A stretch of 64,000 nucleotides of DNA from Devosia aquimaris (lineage in GTDB: Bacteria > Pseudomonadota > Alphaproteobacteria > Rhizobiales > Devosiaceae): contig NZ_JAIEZN010000001.1 in the NCBI RefSeq assembly GCF_020169335.1, positions 823,426 to 887,425 on the forward strand, in the 5' to 3' direction. Shown in pieces: positions 14,403 through 21,042 of the stretch (positions are counted from its first letter, which is position 1; each line of letters begins with the position of its first letter). The translations under genes were made by a program, and so were the position numbers. A model generated the notes under the pieces. That model saw only the letters and a program-made list of their open reading frames with translations. It did no database searches and was not told where the DNA came from.

Positions 14403-14449
14403 CCGCCGCTCCGCCGGCACCAAGAATGACTGACTTTGGAGGTCAACTA

Positions 14450-15823
14450 ATGAAACTCAAGAGCCTTATCCTCGGTTCTGTAGCTGCTGCCGGTCTCTCG
14501 ACCTCGGGCTTTGCTGCCGATCTCGGCGTCCTCACCTCGATGGACCTTTGCAACGACCTGGGCCTGTCCGGCCTGACCATCTCGTCTGCCGACAACTGCC
14601 TGCAGATCTCGGGTTCCGTTTCCTACGAAATGAACTTCGGTAACTTCAACGGCAAGACCGTCATCTCCAGCCTGCCCCTGGGCGGCGCCGGCGTTGTCGT
14701 TCTCAAGGACATCGATGCCCCCGACACCGTCGCTGGCGGCACCAACGAGTGGAACTCGAAGGTTGAGTCCTGGCTGAAGTTCGTTGGCACTGCATCGAGC
14801 GACTTCGGTCCTGCTCGTGCTGTGATCAAGATCAAGAACGAAAACAAGTCGGTTTTCGTGAATGGCGTTCTGGGTGCTGCTGGCGACCAGAAGAACAACC
14901 TGTTCTTCATGGACGAAGCCTACGTCCAGGTTGGCGATGCGACCGTTCTCTCCGCTGGTAAGAAGGGTTCGATCTTCAACAAGGGCGACGACGAGCCCTT
15001 CAACTTCACTGGCCTGTTCGCTGCTTCCAAGGAAGACAAGGGCGTCATCGGCTCGGATGAATACTACAAGGCCTTCACCGCAACCGGCGGCCATGTCATC
15101 CAGCTCGAATCCGACTTCGGCAACGGCGTTGGCGGCAAGATCGGTCTGGAAAAGATCGACGCAGCCGGCACCCTGGTTGGCGTTCTGCAGTACTCGGGTG
15201 ACTCGGTCACCGCGCACATCAGCGCTGCTGCTGGTGGCATCCTCGACGGTATCGCTACCGCCGCTGACACCTATGCGATCCATGCCGGCTTCACCGGCAC
15301 GTTCGACGCCTTCAAGATCCGCGGCGCTCTGGCTGCCGGTGGTTCGACCCTCGCTGGCGACCAGACCAGCTACCTGAACGGCCTCGTGTCGGCTCAGGGC
15401 ACCTTCGACATGTTCACGATCGCAGCTTCGGCTGAAGTCCTGAGCAGCACCACTGCTGCTGGCGTCCGCTCGACCGGTTACGGTTTCGGCGGCTCCATCG
15501 GCGCCAAGGTGTCGGAAGGCGTGTCGGTTAACCTCGGTGGCCGTTACTTCGGTCAGGACGTTTCGGGTTCGGGCGCTGGCTACCAGGTTGCCGCTCAGCT
15601 CGTTGCTGCTCTCTCCGAGACCATCACCGTCACCGGCGAAGTCGGCGTCTATGGCCGCACCGAGCGCACCATTGCTGTTGCCACCCCGGCTCTGTCGGAC
15701 GTGTACGGCAGTGCAACCCTGGCTTGGGCTCCTGGCGGCGGTTTCACCTCGTCGGTTGGCGCCACTGTCCAGCAGAACGGTGCCTACAAGGTCACCTTCA
15801 AGGCTGCCAAGGCCTTCCAGTAA
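14450..15823 (+). CDS. Rhizobiales-type outer-membrane porin
   Basis: A 457-residue outer-membrane beta-barrel. A Sec signal peptide MKLKSLILGSVAAAGLSTSGFA ends at an AXA-like site near residue 22. The mature chain begins ADLGVLTSMDLCNDLGLSGL and shows alternating amphipathic strands rich in Gly, aromatic residues and Ser, ending in FKAAKAFQ with a C-terminal aromatic region, as in the alphaproteobacterial porin family. The ATG at 14450 is preceded by GGAGG at 14438-14442; an in-frame extension upstream is not plausible. Codon use is strongly biased (many GCT, GGT, TCG), fitting high expression. A strong terminator follows. Confidence 0.88.
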   Translation: MKLKSLILGSVAAAGLSTSGFAADLGVLTSMDLCNDLGLSGLTISSADNCLQISGSVSYEMNFGNFNGKTVISSLPLGGAGVVVLKDIDAPDTVAGGTNEWNSKVESWLKFVGTASSDFGPARAVIKIKNENKSVFVNGVLGAAGDQKNNLFFMDEAYVQVGDATVLSAGKKGSIFNKGDDEPFNFTGLFAASKEDKGVIGSDEYYKAFTATGGHVIQLESDFGNGVGGKIGLEKIDAAGTLVGVLQYSGDSVTAHISAAAGGILDGIATAADTYAIHAGFTGTFDAFKIRGALAAGGSTLAGDQTSYLNGLVSAQGTFDMFTIAASAEVLSSTTAAGVRSTGYGFGGSIGAKVSEGVSVNLGGRYFGQDVSGSGAGYQVAAQLVAALSETITVTGEVGVYGRTERTIAVATPALSDVYGSATLAWAPGGGFTSSVGATVQQNGAYKVTFKAAKAFQ

Positions 15824-15847
15824 TCCTCGGATTACGACCCACTACGG

Positions 15848-15881
15848 AAAGGCCCGGCTCACGCCGGGCCTTTCTGCTTTT
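15848..15881 (+). terminator. Rho-independent terminator after porin
   Basis: AAAGGCCCGGC at 15848-15858 pairs perfectly with GCCGGGCCTTT at 15863-15873 around a TCAC loop, followed by the T-rich CTGCTTTT. It lies 25 bp after the porin stop codon. Confidence 0.9.
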
Positions 15882-16130
15882 GCGGGGTGACCGTTGCTCG
15901 CCATCCTCGCGCCTGGACTGTTGACCGCGCGGCGACGGAGCCGACCACAGCGACATTTTGCCGGCTGCGTCACCGCTGATTCTGCCTCTGCTAGCCCCAT
16001 GAGCTGTCAGGTCCTGACCCGCTCGCGAAAATGCGTTAGAGAACAGGCCGTTAGCGAACCAAAATCCATTTCATCGCCGGTCGAAATGCTCTAGCGTTGC
16101 CGCAGTTGCGGACGTTTCACTGGATATTGA
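15882..16130. other. Intergenic region between porin terminator and OmpA-repeat gene
   Basis: No gene is supported. Near 16060-16095 the sequence CATTTCATCGCCGGTCGAAATGCTCTAG resembles a decayed copy of a dispersed intergenic repeat that I associate with Rhizobiales chromosomes (words such as TCGAAATGCTCTAG); this is recollection and not proven here. The promoter of the next gene should lie in this stretch. Confidence 0.3.
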
Positions 16131-19100
16131 ATGATCAGGGACCTTCTGAAGTGGGTCGTGCCTGGGCTGGCCACAGTCCTGGGGGGAACCACGATTTGTC
16201 TGGCCATGACCTCATCCAGGATTGCGGATGATGTTTCAGCCCAATCCCGTGCCGTTCTTGATCGGGCCGGCGTCGATTGGGCCGACTTGTCCGTCGACAT
16301 GCGCGACATTTCTCTGTCCGGCACCACGACCGATCAGGCTCGGGTCGATTCCGTGGTCAACCAGCTCTCCAGTCTTGCTGGTGTGCGCGGCGTTGCCACC
16401 GCCGTGACCTTGGCCCCGGTGCTGGCGCCCTATCGTTTTGAGGTCAGCATTGCCGATGGCGCGATCGCGGTCTCCGGCGGAGTTCCTGATATCACCACGC
16501 GCGACAAACTTCTGGCCCACGCCGGCGTGGGGCAGGGCGATCTTGTGCTCAGTTCCGGCCTGAAGGATCGGCAAGCCTGGCTGGCCGGCGCCGAATTTGC
16601 CATCGATCACCTGCAATATTTCGATCAAGGCAGCATCGAGGTCTCCGATCTGACGGTCAATGTGACCGGCCGTGCCAAGTCGGTCCGCGATTATCGTGAC
16701 CTGCTCATTGTCATGCGCGCGGGTGCGCCGCAGGGGACGGCCCTGGGTAAGGTGGAGATCGAGCCGGCGCTGGTGTCCCCCTATGAGTGGACTGCCGTTT
16801 CGGATGGCCAAAGCATCGCGATTTCCGGTTTCGTGCCCAATGATCAACTGGCAGATCGCTTGCGCACTGCCGCTGCAGCGGGCCTTACCGTGTCCACCGG
16901 CCTTGCCCTTGGGTCCGGTGCGCCAGAGGGATTTGATTCGCTGTCTCAGACGCTTATTGAACAACTTTCGCGTCTTGAATACGGTTCGGCCAGCATCACG
17001 GATGGCATCAGCACCCTCACGGGCGCGCCGCCGAGCGAGGCTGTCGCCCAGGCCGTTGTCGAAGCACTCGAGCCCGCTGGCTCCATTATCACCCTCGAGC
17101 CGCCCCGCATCGCCGACTATTGGGTATCGGCCACGCGGCAGGCCAGTGGCACCATTGTGTTCGATGGCTATGCGCCCGACGAGGCCACGCGCGAGCGTCT
17201 GGCCCAGCACAAGGGTGCCGATGCCAGTTTCCTCAAGCTCGGCCGCGGCGCGCCCGAACGCTACCAGTCGGCAGTCGATTTCGGTCTCACCATGCTCGAT
17301 CGCATGAGCGAGGGCCGTTTCGCACTCAATGGCACGGCCATCACCCTGACCGGCACGGCCAATAGCGGTGCCGACTACCAGGCGCTGCTGGCCGCTGTCG
17401 CCGAACAGGCGCCGCAGGGGTTGACCCTGACGGCTGGTGACATTCTGCCGCCGCGCGCCGCGCAATATGAATTTGCTGCCGTCAAGCAGCCCTCCGGCAC
17501 CATTGTGCTGACGGGCCTCGTGCCCAATCCGCAGGATCTGGTGACCCTGAAAACGGCCGCCGGACCTGGTGCGACGGCATCGACCAGCTTTGCCTCTGGC
17601 GCCCCCACCAATTTCGTCGACTCCGCCAAGACCGGGCTCAACCTTTTGCAGTGGCTGGCTGAGGGCAAGATAAGCTTTGACGGTTCGGGCTGGCTGCTCA
17701 CCGGCACGCCCAAGTCGGCCATCGACAAGGCTGCCGCCGAGACTGATTTTGCCACCCGACAGCTAGCCGCCGCCGGCTGGTCCATGGCCCTGGCCGAGCC
17801 GCAGCCGGTGATTGCTGTAGCCTCGCCCTATATCTGGTCGGCCACGCGGTCGGCGGCTGGCGTCAGCCTCGCTGGCTCCGCGCCCACGCCCGCCATACGC
17901 CAGGCGCTTGTGCGCCAGGCTGGCCCCGGCGCCAGCGACGGCCTCACCATTGCGACCGGCGAACCCGCAGGCTTCGACACGGCCGCGCGTGCCGCCCTGG
18001 CGGCGGTCCTTGCGCTCGAGAGCGGCACGGCCAGCTATGACGGCAATGCCTGGTCGCTCAGCGGCAATGCCGCCTCTGCCGAGGCGCGCGATGCGGTTCT
18101 GGCCGCACTGTCCAAGGCTACGGACACCGCGGCCTGGACAGTTGCCATCACGGCGCCCGAAGCCCTGCCGGCCTCGCCCTATGTCTGGTCGGCGACCAAG
18201 GCCGCAGACGGCGTGGTGACCATGACCGGGCTTGTCCCTGCCGATACGCTCAAGCGCTTCATCAGCGTGCGGGCCGGGGCAGGGGCGGTTGACGAGACCG
18301 TCATCGATCCCAATGCGCCCGCCGGCTTTGCCGACGATGTGGTTGCCGGCCTCGACGCTCTGGCGCCGCTGACCGAAGGTCGCGTCAGCTTTGACGGCAG
18401 CAAATGGTCCATCGAAGGCACATTGCCGGCGGATGCCGATGACGCTGCGGTGACGGCCCTGTTGTCCGGCGGCCGCACGCCGGCGCAGGACTGGCAAGTC
18501 ACGCTCGTCCATGCTGCCGCCGAAGCCGTGCCCGCCGAACCCGCCGTGACCGAAACACCCGCGGCGACAGCGGAAGTGACCGAGGCCGAACCGGTCGCAA
18601 CCGAAGCACCGGTCGAGCAGACGCCGCCAGTCGTCGACCCGGCCTATGCCTTCTCGGCCAGCCGATCGGCCGATGGCAGCGTTATCCTCAGCGGCCAAGT
18701 GCCGGACGATGCCGCCCTGCAGCGGCTCACCGCTCTCTCCAAGGGCGATGCGGCTGCGGTCAGCCTGGCCGAAGGCGCCCCCAATGGCTTCCTCGCCAGC
18801 GCCGAAATCGGCCTGCGTGCCCTCCAGCGCCTCACCACGGGACAGCTCGACTTCGCCAATGGCGCCTGGCGCTTGAGCGGCTCGGCGCCCGATCCGGTGA
18901 CCAATGACGCCATCAGTGCCGCCGTGGCCACCGATACCGCCGCCACATGGAGGCTCGATGTCGCCGTGCCGCCACCGGCTGCCGAGCCGGAAGTGGCCGC
19001 CACAGAACCGGTGCCCGAAACCCCGCCATCGCCGGATCTGTCGGCCTGCATTGGCATCCTGGCCGATTTCTCCGGACGCAACGCCATCCTGTTCCAGTCG

Positions 19101-19412
19101 GGCGCGGCGCTGATCTCGGCGGAGTCCGAACGTGCCCTTGACGAGCTGGCCATGGACCTCAAGGCCTGCCCACCGGCGCAGATCCATGTCGAGGGCCACA
19201 CCGATGCCGATGGCGATCCGCAGCAGAACCTGGCGCTCTCGGTTGCCCGCGCTGAAGCCGTGGTCTCGGCCCTGATCGAACGCGGTGTCGATCCCAGCCT
19301 GCTCTATGCGGTCGGCTATGGCGCCGCGCGCCCGGTCGCCGACAATGACACGGCCGCCGGCAAGCGCCTCAACCGCCGCATCGTGGTGACGGTCAGCAAT
19401 GTCGCGCCGTGA
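16131..19412 (+). CDS. Large envelope protein: seven BON-like repeats plus C-terminal OmpA peptidoglycan-binding domain
   Basis: A 1093-residue protein. A membrane anchor spans about residues 7-25. Seven repeat units of about 115 residues start near residues 100, 217, 330, 446, 567, 684 and 839; each opens with a PY.(W/F)SAT-like strand and GxVxLxGxVP, and later has GAPxGF and a SFDGxxWxLxG strand, reminiscent of BON-type alpha/beta folds. An Ala/Glu/Pro-rich linker lies at about 795-838. The OmpA domain (about 975-1093) has FQSGAALISAESERALDELA, GHTDADGD, NLALSVARAEAV and GYGAARPV, the peptidoglycan-binding set. It probably ties the inner membrane to the wall. It is followed by two small membrane proteins. 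Confidence 0.85.
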   Translation: MIRDLLKWVVPGLATVLGGTTICLAMTSSRIADDVSAQSRAVLDRAGVDWADLSVDMRDISLSGTTTDQARVDSVVNQLSSLAGVRGVATAVTLAPVLAPYRFEVSIADGAIAVSGGVPDITTRDKLLAHAGVGQGDLVLSSGLKDRQAWLAGAEFAIDHLQYFDQGSIEVSDLTVNVTGRAKSVRDYRDLLIVMRAGAPQGTALGKVEIEPALVSPYEWTAVSDGQSIAISGFVPNDQLADRLRTAAAAGLTVSTGLALGSGAPEGFDSLSQTLIEQLSRLEYGSASITDGISTLTGAPPSEAVAQAVVEALEPAGSIITLEPPRIADYWVSATRQASGTIVFDGYAPDEATRERLAQHKGADASFLKLGRGAPERYQSAVDFGLTMLDRMSEGRFALNGTAITLTGTANSGADYQALLAAVAEQAPQGLTLTAGDILPPRAAQYEFAAVKQPSGTIVLTGLVPNPQDLVTLKTAAGPGATASTSFASGAPTNFVDSAKTGLNLLQWLAEGKISFDGSGWLLTGTPKSAIDKAAAETDFATRQLAAAGWSMALAEPQPVIAVASPYIWSATRSAAGVSLAGSAPTPAIRQALVRQAGPGASDGLTIATGEPAGFDTAARAALAAVLALESGTASYDGNAWSLSGNAASAEARDAVLAALSKATDTAAWTVAITAPEALPASPYVWSATKAADGVVTMTGLVPADTLKRFISVRAGAGAVDETVIDPNAPAGFADDVVAGLDALAPLTEGRVSFDGSKWSIEGTLPADADDAAVTALLSGGRTPAQDWQVTLVHAAAEAVPAEPAVTETPAATAEVTEAEPVATEAPVEQTPPVVDPAYAFSASRSADGSVILSGQVPDDAALQRLTALSKGDAAAVSLAEGAPNGFLASAEIGLRALQRLTTGQLDFANGAWRLSGSAPDPVTNDAISAAVATDTAATWRLDVAVPPPAAEPEVAATEPVPETPPSPDLSACIGILADFSGRNAILFQSGAALISAESERALDELAMDLKACPPAQIHVEGHTDADGDPQQNLALSVARAEAVVSALIERGVDPSLLYAVGYGAARPVADNDTAAGKRLNRRIVVTVSNVAP

Positions 19413-19439
19413 TCTGCCGCCAGCGCTAGGCCGTTTGTC

Positions 19440-19553
19440 ATGAGCTGGGCCGGGCTTCAGTTTCTGCTGGGCTATTACTGGCCCTACCTGGCCGTGGTGC
19501 TGGCAATTGGCGTCGTGGTGGGCTGGCGAAGCTTCAGCCCGCCCAAGCCGTGA
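19440..19553 (+). CDS. Small 37-residue single-span membrane protein
   Basis: Translation from ATG 19440 gives 37 residues: MSWAGLQFLLGYYWPYLAVV, then a hydrophobic LAIGVVVGW and a short polar tail RSFSPPKP. One transmembrane helix at about residues 8-29 is evident. It starts 27 nt after the OmpA-repeat stop and its stop overlaps a possible GTG start of the next gene, so it sits inside an apparent operon. No family is recognised. The ribosome site is weak, so translation is an inference from position, hydrophobicity and lack of overlap with other genes. Confidence 0.6.
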   Translation: MSWAGLQFLLGYYWPYLAVVLAIGVVVGWRSFSPPKP

Positions 19554-19561
19554 GTGGTGCA

Positions 19562-20098
19562 ATGACCAATATTGCCCATGTTGCCGAAACCGCGCTGCTC
19601 GTGCTGTTGGCCTATGTTGTCGGCTGCCTGCTCGGCTATGGCCTGCATCGCCTGCTGCATGCCGCACAGGGGACACGCATCGTGCCGCCGGAAATGGCCG
19701 AAGCCGCGCCGGCCCCGCCGCCGCGTCGGGTGCCGACGCCTGCAGCGCGCCTGGCGGCCGCCGCGGCCAATGATCCGCCACCCGAACTGCCCACGCGCGC
19801 GGCGCCGCCCGCTGAGCCAGTTCCACCTGCACCCCCGGCCGATCCGCGGCCCCCGGCGTTGGCGGCGCCGCGCAACGGCACGCCGGACAAGCTGCAGGCC
19901 ATCAAGGGCATTGGGCCCAAGATCGAGGCATCGCTGCATGCCCTGGGCATCTATCATCTCGATCAGATTGCCGCCTGGGACCGCGCCAATGTCGATTGGG
20001 TCGATGCGCGCCTGGCGTTCAAGGGGCGTATTCGCCGCGAGCAATGGGTAGCACAGGCCGAGCGCATGCTGGCTGAACGCCTGCCGGCCGACAATTAG
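19562..20098 (+). CDS. Membrane-anchored protein with helix-hairpin-helix-like C-terminal domain
   Basis: A 178-residue protein. A transmembrane helix covers about residues 8-30 (LLVLLAYVVGCLLGYGL), a Pro/Ala-rich linker about 40-110, and a C-terminal domain reads LQAIKGIGPKIEASLHALGI, then DQIAAWDRANVDWVDARL and FKGRIRREQWVAQAE. That domain resembles the C-terminal extension seen on NuoE and ribosomal protein L21 of Rhizobiales and the helix-hairpin-helix part of COG3743-type proteins. Its role is unknown. GTG 19550 is an alternative start that overlaps the small gene upstream. It overlaps the opposing hydrolase gene by four bases. Confidence 0.75.
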   Translation: MTNIAHVAETALLVLLAYVVGCLLGYGLHRLLHAAQGTRIVPPEMAEAAPAPPPRRVPTPAARLAAAAANDPPPELPTRAAPPAEPVPPAPPADPRPPALAAPRNGTPDKLQAIKGIGPKIEASLHALGIYHLDQIAAWDRANVDWVDARLAFKGRIRREQWVAQAERMLAERLPADN

Positions 20099-21042
20099 GC
20101 GGCGCGGCCCAGCCGTTGCTGGCTGATGTCCATCACAAAGCGGGCGATGGCGGCAGTTTCGTCGGTGCCGTCAAACAGGGCAGGGGAGCCTTGGCCGGCC
20201 AGGGTGATGGCCGTCGCGTCCGGCCGACGGCGTACCATTTCGTCAAACGTCTCCCGCCGCACCTGGTCGCTCAGCTGCGTCCGCAGTAGCAGCAGCGGCG
20301 CGCAACGCAGCGCATCATAGAGCGGCCATTGCGCCATCAGCACGTCGTCGAAATTGATCTCGGCCAGCGCCGCCACCAGCCGCGGATCATAAAGCGGCCG
20401 TGCTCGCCCCCGCTTGTCGAGATAGTGGCTGCGCCCCATCAGTGCATCCAGCCGGTCTTCTGCCTGCCCGGGGTAATCGCCCGCCAGCATGCGGCGGAAT
20501 CCAGCACGCACGGTTTTCTCGCCGCGCAGGCTTTCCACATGCGCCAGATTGTTGCGCAAACGCACGATCCCGCGGGAATCGGTGACCGGTCCGGCATCGA
20601 CCAGGACCGTCCCGGCAAACAACAGCGGATGGTTTGCGGCGAGCGCCATGGCCACCTGTCCGCCCTGTCCCTGGCCGACTAATACGACAGGCCCGATACC
20701 CAGCGCCGCCAGCACGGCCGCCACATCCTCAGCGTCCCGCAGCGTGCTGTAGTCCTCGGCGCGTTGCCGGTCATCCGAGCGGCCGCGCCCAGGCAAGTCG
20801 ATCAGCACCACCGGCCAGTCCGCCGCACCCAAGCGGTTGAAATGCGCGGAAAATCCGGTGAAGTCGCTCATGTTGCGCTGATAGCCGGGCAGGCACACCA
20901 CCGGCACGCGCTGCTGCGTCAGGCGACCGCTCACATGCACCGCCAGCGACAGCCCATGGCCCAGCGTCACGCGCTGGATTGGCAGCTCGGCGAAGGCGGC
21001 ATGGTCTGGTGGAACGGATCGGGCTCGGGCCAAGGGCGTCAT
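20095..21042 (-). CDS. Alpha/beta hydrolase-fold protein lacking the nucleophile serine
   Basis: A 315-residue alpha/beta hydrolase-fold protein. The oxyanion region PVVCLPGYQRNMSDF and the strand VVLIDLPGRGRSD are typical. The nucleophile elbow, usually GxSxGG, reads VGQGQGGQ, with Gly125 (codon GGA at 20668-20670) where Ser belongs. The usual C-terminal catalytic His is also replaced: LAGQGSPALF has Gln at about residue 284. The acid may survive in RTQLSDQV. It therefore looks like a pseudoenzyme rather than an active esterase. It is convergent with the helix-hairpin-helix gene. Confidence 0.85.
   Translation of the reverse strand: MTPLARARSVPPDHAAFAELPIQRVTLGHGLSLAVHVSGRLTQQRVPVVCLPGYQRNMSDFTGFSAHFNRLGAADWPVVLIDLPGRGRSDDRQRAEDYSTLRDAEDVAAVLAALGIGPVVLVGQGQGGQVAMALAANHPLLFAGTVLVDAGPVTDSRGIVRLRNNLAHVESLRGEKTVRAGFRRMLAGDYPGQAEDRLDALMGRSHYLDKRGRARPLYDPRLVAALAEINFDDVLMAQWPLYDALRCAPLLLLRTQLSDQVRRETFDEMVRRRPDATAITLAGQGSPALFDGTDETAAIARFVMDISQQRLGRAA

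Follow-up and report, generated by a model that had tools for sequence, protein, structure and literature searches.

The mycobacterial operon rv0899-rv0901 (arfABC) encodes ArfA (Rv0899, or OmpATb), ArfB (Rv0900) and ArfC (Rv0901). Functional data on the operon concern acid adaptation and ammonia release (available parts of PMC3816664 and PMC4885829). In the available sections of PMC3816664, ammonia secretion is reported to depend on OmpATb, the porin role of this protein is debated, with neither a beta-barrel nor an obvious porin activity, and Rv0899-like proteins are assigned to nitrogen-fixing bacteria as well (Marassi 2011, as cited there). The central domain of Rv0899 is made of six strands opposite three helices (PMC6151718, available part). 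In NCBIfam ArfA is named 'channel-forming', and ArfB and ArfC 'channel accessory' proteins; no molecular role is given for the latter two in the accessible portions of the literature. We describe here three adjoining genes, called A, B and C, found in a window of 64,000 nucleotides (nt) of the alphaproteobacterium Devosia aquimaris (assembly GCF_020169335.1, contig NZ_JAIEZN010000001.1, positions 823,426 to 887,425). Because the repeats of A have the fold of the Rv0899 B domain, and the gene order is that of arfABC, the trio may be called an ArfABC-like cassette, with seven beads for one. It is not a strict member: A, B and C fall short of the NCBIfam criteria for ArfA, ArfB and ArfC, and it is unproven that the two small proteins are homologous to ArfB and ArfC. 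We think it fairly probable that A tethers the inner membrane to the wall, that B and C sit at its base, and that the tail of C serves as a cytoplasmic dock. A periplasm-spanning repeat tether with a wall-binding end had been proposed in a sequence-only reading of this DNA; a tether of this kind, anchored in the inner membrane, is still the best reading, span and function being deduced from domains and gene order. The features of the three genes are as follows (aa, amino acids; HMM, hidden Markov model; ORF, open reading frame; TM, transmembrane).

16131..19412, + strand: gene A, ArfA-like protein of 1093 aa (open ORF; Pfam and NCBIfam matches)
16131..16208, + strand: N-terminal hydrophobic helix of A, residues 1-26 (hydropathy)
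16236..16415, + strand: N-terminal BON domain of A, residues 36-95 (PF04972, E 4.6e-7)
16431..18980, + strand: seven ArfA-B-like repeats of A (repeat HMM, AlphaFold2, Foldseek, VIA)
19089..19376, + strand: OmpA peptidoglycan-binding domain of A, residues 987-1082 (PF00691, E 1.5e-20; 2l26, E 3e-16)
19440..19553, + strand: gene B, one-helix protein of 37 aa with the motif W-x9-G-x3-G-W (ORF, motif, coding constraint)
19562..20098, + strand: gene C, TM helix (A-Y-x2-G-x3-G), Pro-rich linker and HhH tail (ORF, starts of relatives)
19868..20074, + strand: HhH tail domain of C (9wqv_a, E 2.2e-19; 8yy9_O, E 3.1e-19)

The sequence-only reading had listed ORFs of 1093, 37 and 182 aa (16131-19412, 19440-19553 and 19550-20098), seven units of about 115 residues and an OmpA domain in A, and, after A, a one-helix protein and a membrane-anchored HhH protein. 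All of these were found as described, the three frames being open throughout. An HMM derived from A's own repeats places the repeat starts at residues 101, 218, 330, 446, 567, 684 and 839, in agreement with the earlier starts to one residue. Compared in pairs, the repeats are on average 28.9% identical; ten shuffled sets gave 17-20%. Evidence independent of our own HMM is provided by the NCBIfam model NF051434 (ArfA_OmpATb_N), which covers five stretches of A (E 6.3e-19). A linker rich in Pro, Glu and Ala, at about residues 801-838, precedes the last repeat. A separate N-terminal BON domain had been overlooked; PF04972 reaches its gathering score (30.5 vs 27 bits) in this single stretch of the protein. 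The N-terminal helix is putatively oriented N-in, as judged from charge.

Repeat 446-566 was modelled by AlphaFold2, the input being an alignment of the seven repeats of A alone. The model (mean predicted local distance difference test score 92.7) features six strands and three helices, as the Rv0899 B domain does. A second repeat, modelled in a two-repeat job, has an identical order of strands and helices. The top three Foldseek matches in PDB are all Rv0899 entries (2ksm, E 2.1e-5; 2l26, E 4.4e-4; 2kgs, E 1.9e-3), with TM-scores of 0.57-0.62 by query length; the fourth row has an E of only 4.1e-2 (prob 0.13). VIA-align assigns the Rv0899 entries Z scores of 9.6, 8.9 and 7.6, in alignments of 113-118 residues with root mean square deviations of 3.1-4.3 and 14-15% identity, and the following row 4.9. 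Compared with BON domains, as the sequence-only reading had suggested, the repeat is closer to the Rv0899 B domain than to DolP, OsmY and BonA. The latter three dual-BON proteins share the superfamily with A, and are weaker structural matches to its repeat (VIA Z 3.6 for DolP, 3.9 for BonA, 2.7 for OsmY); DolP-like or OsmY-like repeats were rejected on these grounds. An ArfA equivalog has a single B domain and a C-terminal OmpA domain; A has the OmpA domain and seven B-type copies. For the uncleaved N-terminal membrane helix of ArfA, A has a candidate by hydropathy. Because of the Rv0899-like repeat fold and the NF051434 matches, A is a relative of ArfA with an amplified B domain. In a transport or channel cassette A would form or gate a pore, or would export ammonia or solutes with B and C, as proposed for the mycobacterial operon. 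We hold this to be unlikely: the NCBIfam names, the OmpATb-dependent ammonia secretion and the debated porin role quoted above are compatible with it, but the same source (PMC3816664, available part) denies OmpATb a beta-barrel and obvious porin activity, and the A repeat is modelled as a compact alpha/beta domain.

Gene B begins 27 nt past the end of A. Its 37-aa ORF looks like a real gene, because the proportion of nonsynonymous differences (pN) is lower than that of synonymous ones (pS) in 231/231 in-frame pairs from 22 loci of the genus; in the two shifted frames pN<pS was found in 45/231 and 37/231 pairs. Its best Pfam match, to DUF6893, is far below cut-off (E 0.028; 14.9 vs 24.6 bits). 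The reading frame of C is open from a GTG at 19550 (182 aa), but a start at the ATG at 19562 (178 aa) is more likely, since relatives in the genus (L006, L007, L008, L056) start with a matching M-T-N.

Thirty-seven genomes of the genus, that of D. aquimaris included, were analyzed, and 35 single-contig loci counted. G017 (62% complete, no locus) and G032, in which the locus is split over two contigs, are outside these counts; the C-terminal half of A in G032 (L056) carries B and C. Porin-like and alpha/beta-hydrolase genes flank all 35 loci, as in the window. Both small genes are present next to A in 22 loci, and are missing in 13. Their conservation beside A, which the sequence-only reading had proposed as a check, is seen in these 22 loci and in most of the order-level genomes fetched, though not in the other 13 loci. 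Searches with C (P0003) over the 13 genomes lacking B and C returned matches only from query residue 41 onwards, outside the TM part, and no match in one genome.

The presence of B and C parallels that of the N-terminal BON domain (phmmer, residues 27-99), which was found in 21/22 loci with B and C, and in 0/13 loci without. Seen from the other side, both genes are kept in 21/21 BON-bearing loci, and both are missing in 13 of the 14 BON-less ones. In the latter, homology to the A query (P0001) restarts at residues 301-317 in 13 loci, and at 284 in G033; most BON-less A proteins have a signal-peptide-like start, as judged by eye. Short A proteins with a near-identical restart residue (301-317) are found at L039-L051, across separate tree branches. 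In a tree built from the C-terminal 255 residues, with three rows on long branches, the B/C state must have changed five times, and well-supported branches force three or more of these changes. On starred branches the joint absence of BON and B/C can be followed in 3 independent pairs, concordant in 2.8/3 on average and never opposite.

P0001 matched 61/61 genomes, often through the OmpA domain alone. At the order level 15 of 24 one-per-family genomes, those with the better matches, were fetched (17 loci), and 9 were not. A downstream HhH-tailed C was found in 14/15, and the B motif in 13/15; G048 has neither. Second loci, outside the 15-genome count, carry B and a TM protein with no HhH found (L061, in G043), or neither B nor C (L068, in G054). 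The locus of G134 (L097) stops at the contig end. In six loci (L076, L096, L099, L100, L102, L114) B and C are in one frame with HhH tails. One of these, L076, resides on a Rhizobium lusitanum plasmid and has two HhH; in family f26, five genomes have a single B-C frame, in which HhH is present in one to three copies. Plasmid searches returned 2 records for A without the OmpA end, and 7 for C. The HhH proteins at L077 and L078 have no ArfA-like gene beside them.

Tails vary among lineages. In g28 of f26 (five genomes) and in family f184 (eight genomes) none of the 13 loci showed an HhH, and a short fused B-C-like protein without tail is present in 10/13. In family f48 a B-type helix and HhH are joined in one frame in 1/9, and a TM protein, coiled-coil by eye, was found in 7/9. 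At L115, L117 and L119-L123 of f48 this TM and coiled-coil (by eye) protein measures about 108-110 aa, and replaces the HhH-tailed C downstream. NF051434 matched 37/289 genomes of the class and 73/299 of the phylum, many matches being short frames of other BON proteins; E. coli, the control, was matched too. Long NF051434 frames were fetched by selection and are no random sample. Nine such loci (L124-L132, the last five outside the class) have no recognisable B-C pair; ArfA calling was uncertain there, and they were dropped. That three unrelated envelope genes are neighbours by chance is very improbable. The 13 genus loci in which A stands without B and C would fit this explanation; the A-B-C order found again across many families, the single B-C frame in six loci, and the joint lack of B/C and BON in 13 of 14 loci all oppose it.

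The same layout, A followed by a small TM protein and then by a TM protein with linker and tail, marks the mycobacterial operon. In 7/7 mycobacterial loci (four from genome contigs, three fetched in addition) A is followed by a one-helix protein starting with MDF- and by a TM protein. Among the loci scanned, NCBIfam models identify ArfB (NF051435) in L079 and L081, and ArfC with a sunset tail (NF051433, NF051455, NF051437) in L079, L081 and L082. The statement of the sequence-only reading that this trio had not been described as a system was therefore too strong, arfABC having the same layout and its own NCBIfam models; it is further weakened by the BON+BON+OmpA proteins tabulated in PMC7806268. 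In title- and abstract-level searches, covering few subscription papers, no description was found of the alphaproteobacterial A-B-C cassette, of B-C fusions or of tail swapping.

C shares its HhH tail with other proteins. This tail matches the C-terminal parts of the NCBIfam models for NuoE (E 8e-31), L21, the phasin PhaH and S2. Fourteen regions with HhH matches were fetched from relatives, and ten proteins scanned against Pfam. HhH is C-terminal on the ribosomal proteins L21 (L137, L145), S2 (L138, L133) and L19 (L144:520-1464), and was also found on NuoE-type 2Fe-2S proteins (L135, L136) and on a polyhydroxybutyrate depolymerase (L139:310-1899); no Pfam family was found on the HhH proteins of L140 (395-1372) and L142 (1558-2961). 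The former, L140:395-1372, is an HhH-tailed membrane protein like protein-O, and adjoins L140:1376-2617, an HhH-tailed NuoE by eye. In the genome of D. aquimaris (92.7% complete; E<=0.001) the sole other HhH tail is on a NuoE-like protein (by eye) beside NuoF, and none was found on a ribosomal protein. The C-terminal domain common to protein-O, NuoE and others is called obscure in function (PMC12079452, section 2.3, available part).

Mycobacterial ArfC ends in sunset, and HhH and sunset tails match different families. NCBIfam lists sunset variants of L17, L4, S2 and L20. All four mycobacterial genomes searched were positive for sunset; the matches lie on ArfC and on three frames that are 710-913 residues long, and on no ribosomal-sized frame, and the sunset-ribosome link is for this reason drawn solely from NCBIfam model names. 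The ArfC at L082:4906-6057 has sunset in triplicate, much as alphaproteobacterial C carries HhH in one to three copies. In two phyla, then, the tail of a C-type membrane protein also occurs on ribosomal proteins, as observed for HhH and as named in NCBIfam for sunset. A literature search on the L21/NuoE/HhH link and on the sunset domain returned no relevant paper. HhH matches elsewhere in the genome were tallied by hand in 41 genomes: 20 with tailed C have 55 (mean 2.75), 13 without have 15 (1.15), and 8 genomes of f48 without have 18 (2.25). A genome-wide link between tailed C and other HhH tails was rejected, and the tally not used as support, because it is confounded by kinship.

Tails of either type might act as interchangeable docking tags, by which the wall-anchored cassette would gather ribosomes, complex I or further tagged complexes, or else a partner that they share, at the envelope. 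We regard this as decidedly unlikely, no HhH having been found elsewhere in the D. aquimaris genome save on the NuoE-like protein, and no ribosomal-sized sunset frame in the four mycobacterial genomes searched. If ribosomal and wall-tethered tails did act alike, a new link of translation or respiration to the envelope would emerge. A wall-stress sensor, in which wall strain on A would pass through B and C and reach C's cytoplasmic tail, is quite unlikely as well. The cassette does combine a wall-binding end with a base in the membrane and a domain presumed to be cytoplasmic, and the C tail differs among lineages, as outputs do, but the family scans of all three proteins gave no enzymatic or known signalling domain, and the HhH tail was not found at the locus in any of the 13 f184 and g28 genomes fetched.

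As an ArfABC-like tether, the cassette would work as follows. The N-terminal helix, presumably uncleaved, would keep A in the inner membrane, the BON and the seven ArfA-B-type domains would span the periplasm, and the OmpA domain would hold peptidoglycan. At about 4 nm per bead, a straight row of seven might extend for about 28 nm. B and C would be single-helix inner-membrane partners in contact with A at its base. The end of C is probably cytoplasmic, to judge from the charge pattern, and the Pro-rich linker and HhH may dock some partner there.

Several observations weigh against this picture. NF051434 scores 68.4 bits on A, under the curated equivalog cut-off of 81 bits, and for this reason A is a relative and no ArfA equivalog. 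The two-repeat model has a predicted TM-score of 0.50, and the geometry of neighbouring beads is not fixed by it. The ArfB model NF051435 did not match B, which has no NCBIfam match at E<=10, and neither the ArfC N-terminal model NF051455 nor the sunset model NF051437 matched C at the same threshold. Comparison of TM profiles gave 7.7% for alphaproteobacterial versus mycobacterial C and 43% for alphaproteobacterial versus mycobacterial B, and as mismatched pairs gave similar or greater values (84% for alphaproteobacterial B versus mycobacterial C, 39% for alphaproteobacterial B versus alphaproteobacterial C), TM profiles were rejected, as non-discriminating, for proving homology to ArfB and ArfC. 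Within the genus, L051 keeps both small genes but not the N-terminal BON; in G033 (L052), which has neither small gene, the DNA still matches residues 1-141 of A. The co-absence of BON and B/C has a median p of 0.25, the pairs being too few for significance, and the common break point near 301-317 could be one event spread by recombination.

Upstream of the cassette one further feature was noted.

15856..15870, + strand: terminator-like hairpin, 3' of the porin-like gene (hairpin scan)

The interval 15780-20200 holds 1 hairpin, against a mean of 2.2 in shuffles, which makes this a weak signal, and none lies between the three genes. A promoter scan detected none, with 0.5 expected. The porin-like gene (14426-15823) has no Pfam family at E<=1, and its other copies in the genus show about 46-70% identity to that in the window.

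Three sets of known proteins resemble parts of the cassette. Proteins of BON+BON+OmpA type (cluster 7 in Table 1 of PMC7806268, mostly from alpha-, beta- and actinobacteria) have, as A, BON-type repeats ahead of OmpA; the available part of that source gives the architecture alone, and mentions neither B, C nor repeat amplification. The dual-BON proteins DolP, OsmY and BonA are, in the accessible descriptions, given no OmpA end, unlike A. Protein-O of the Dinoroseobacter shibae reaction centre-light harvesting 1 (RC-LH1) complex (8YY9) resembles C in having a membrane anchor, a flexible linker and the C-terminal HhH. In contrast to C, it is a two-helix hairpin, belongs to a photosynthetic complex, and is encoded between nuoE and nuoF, and no ArfA-like neighbour is reported in the available part of PMC12079452.

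Mycobacterial ArfABC shares more with the window. The A-B-C gene order is common to both; ArfA and A have the N-terminal helix, the B-domain fold and the OmpA end; ArfB and B are tiny one-helix proteins, and the spacing W-x9-G-x3-[GA]-W is found in 6/7 mycobacterial loci; ArfC and C feature a TM helix, a linker and a portable tail domain. The window differs in that its B and C are unmatched by the NCBIfam ArfB and ArfC models, A has seven B domains and an extra BON where mycobacterial ArfA has one B domain, and C ends in HhH where ArfC ends in sunset. Alphaproteobacterial variants, differing in bead number, B-C fusions, B/C-less loci and tails, would make the role of ArfB and ArfC testable outside pathogens.

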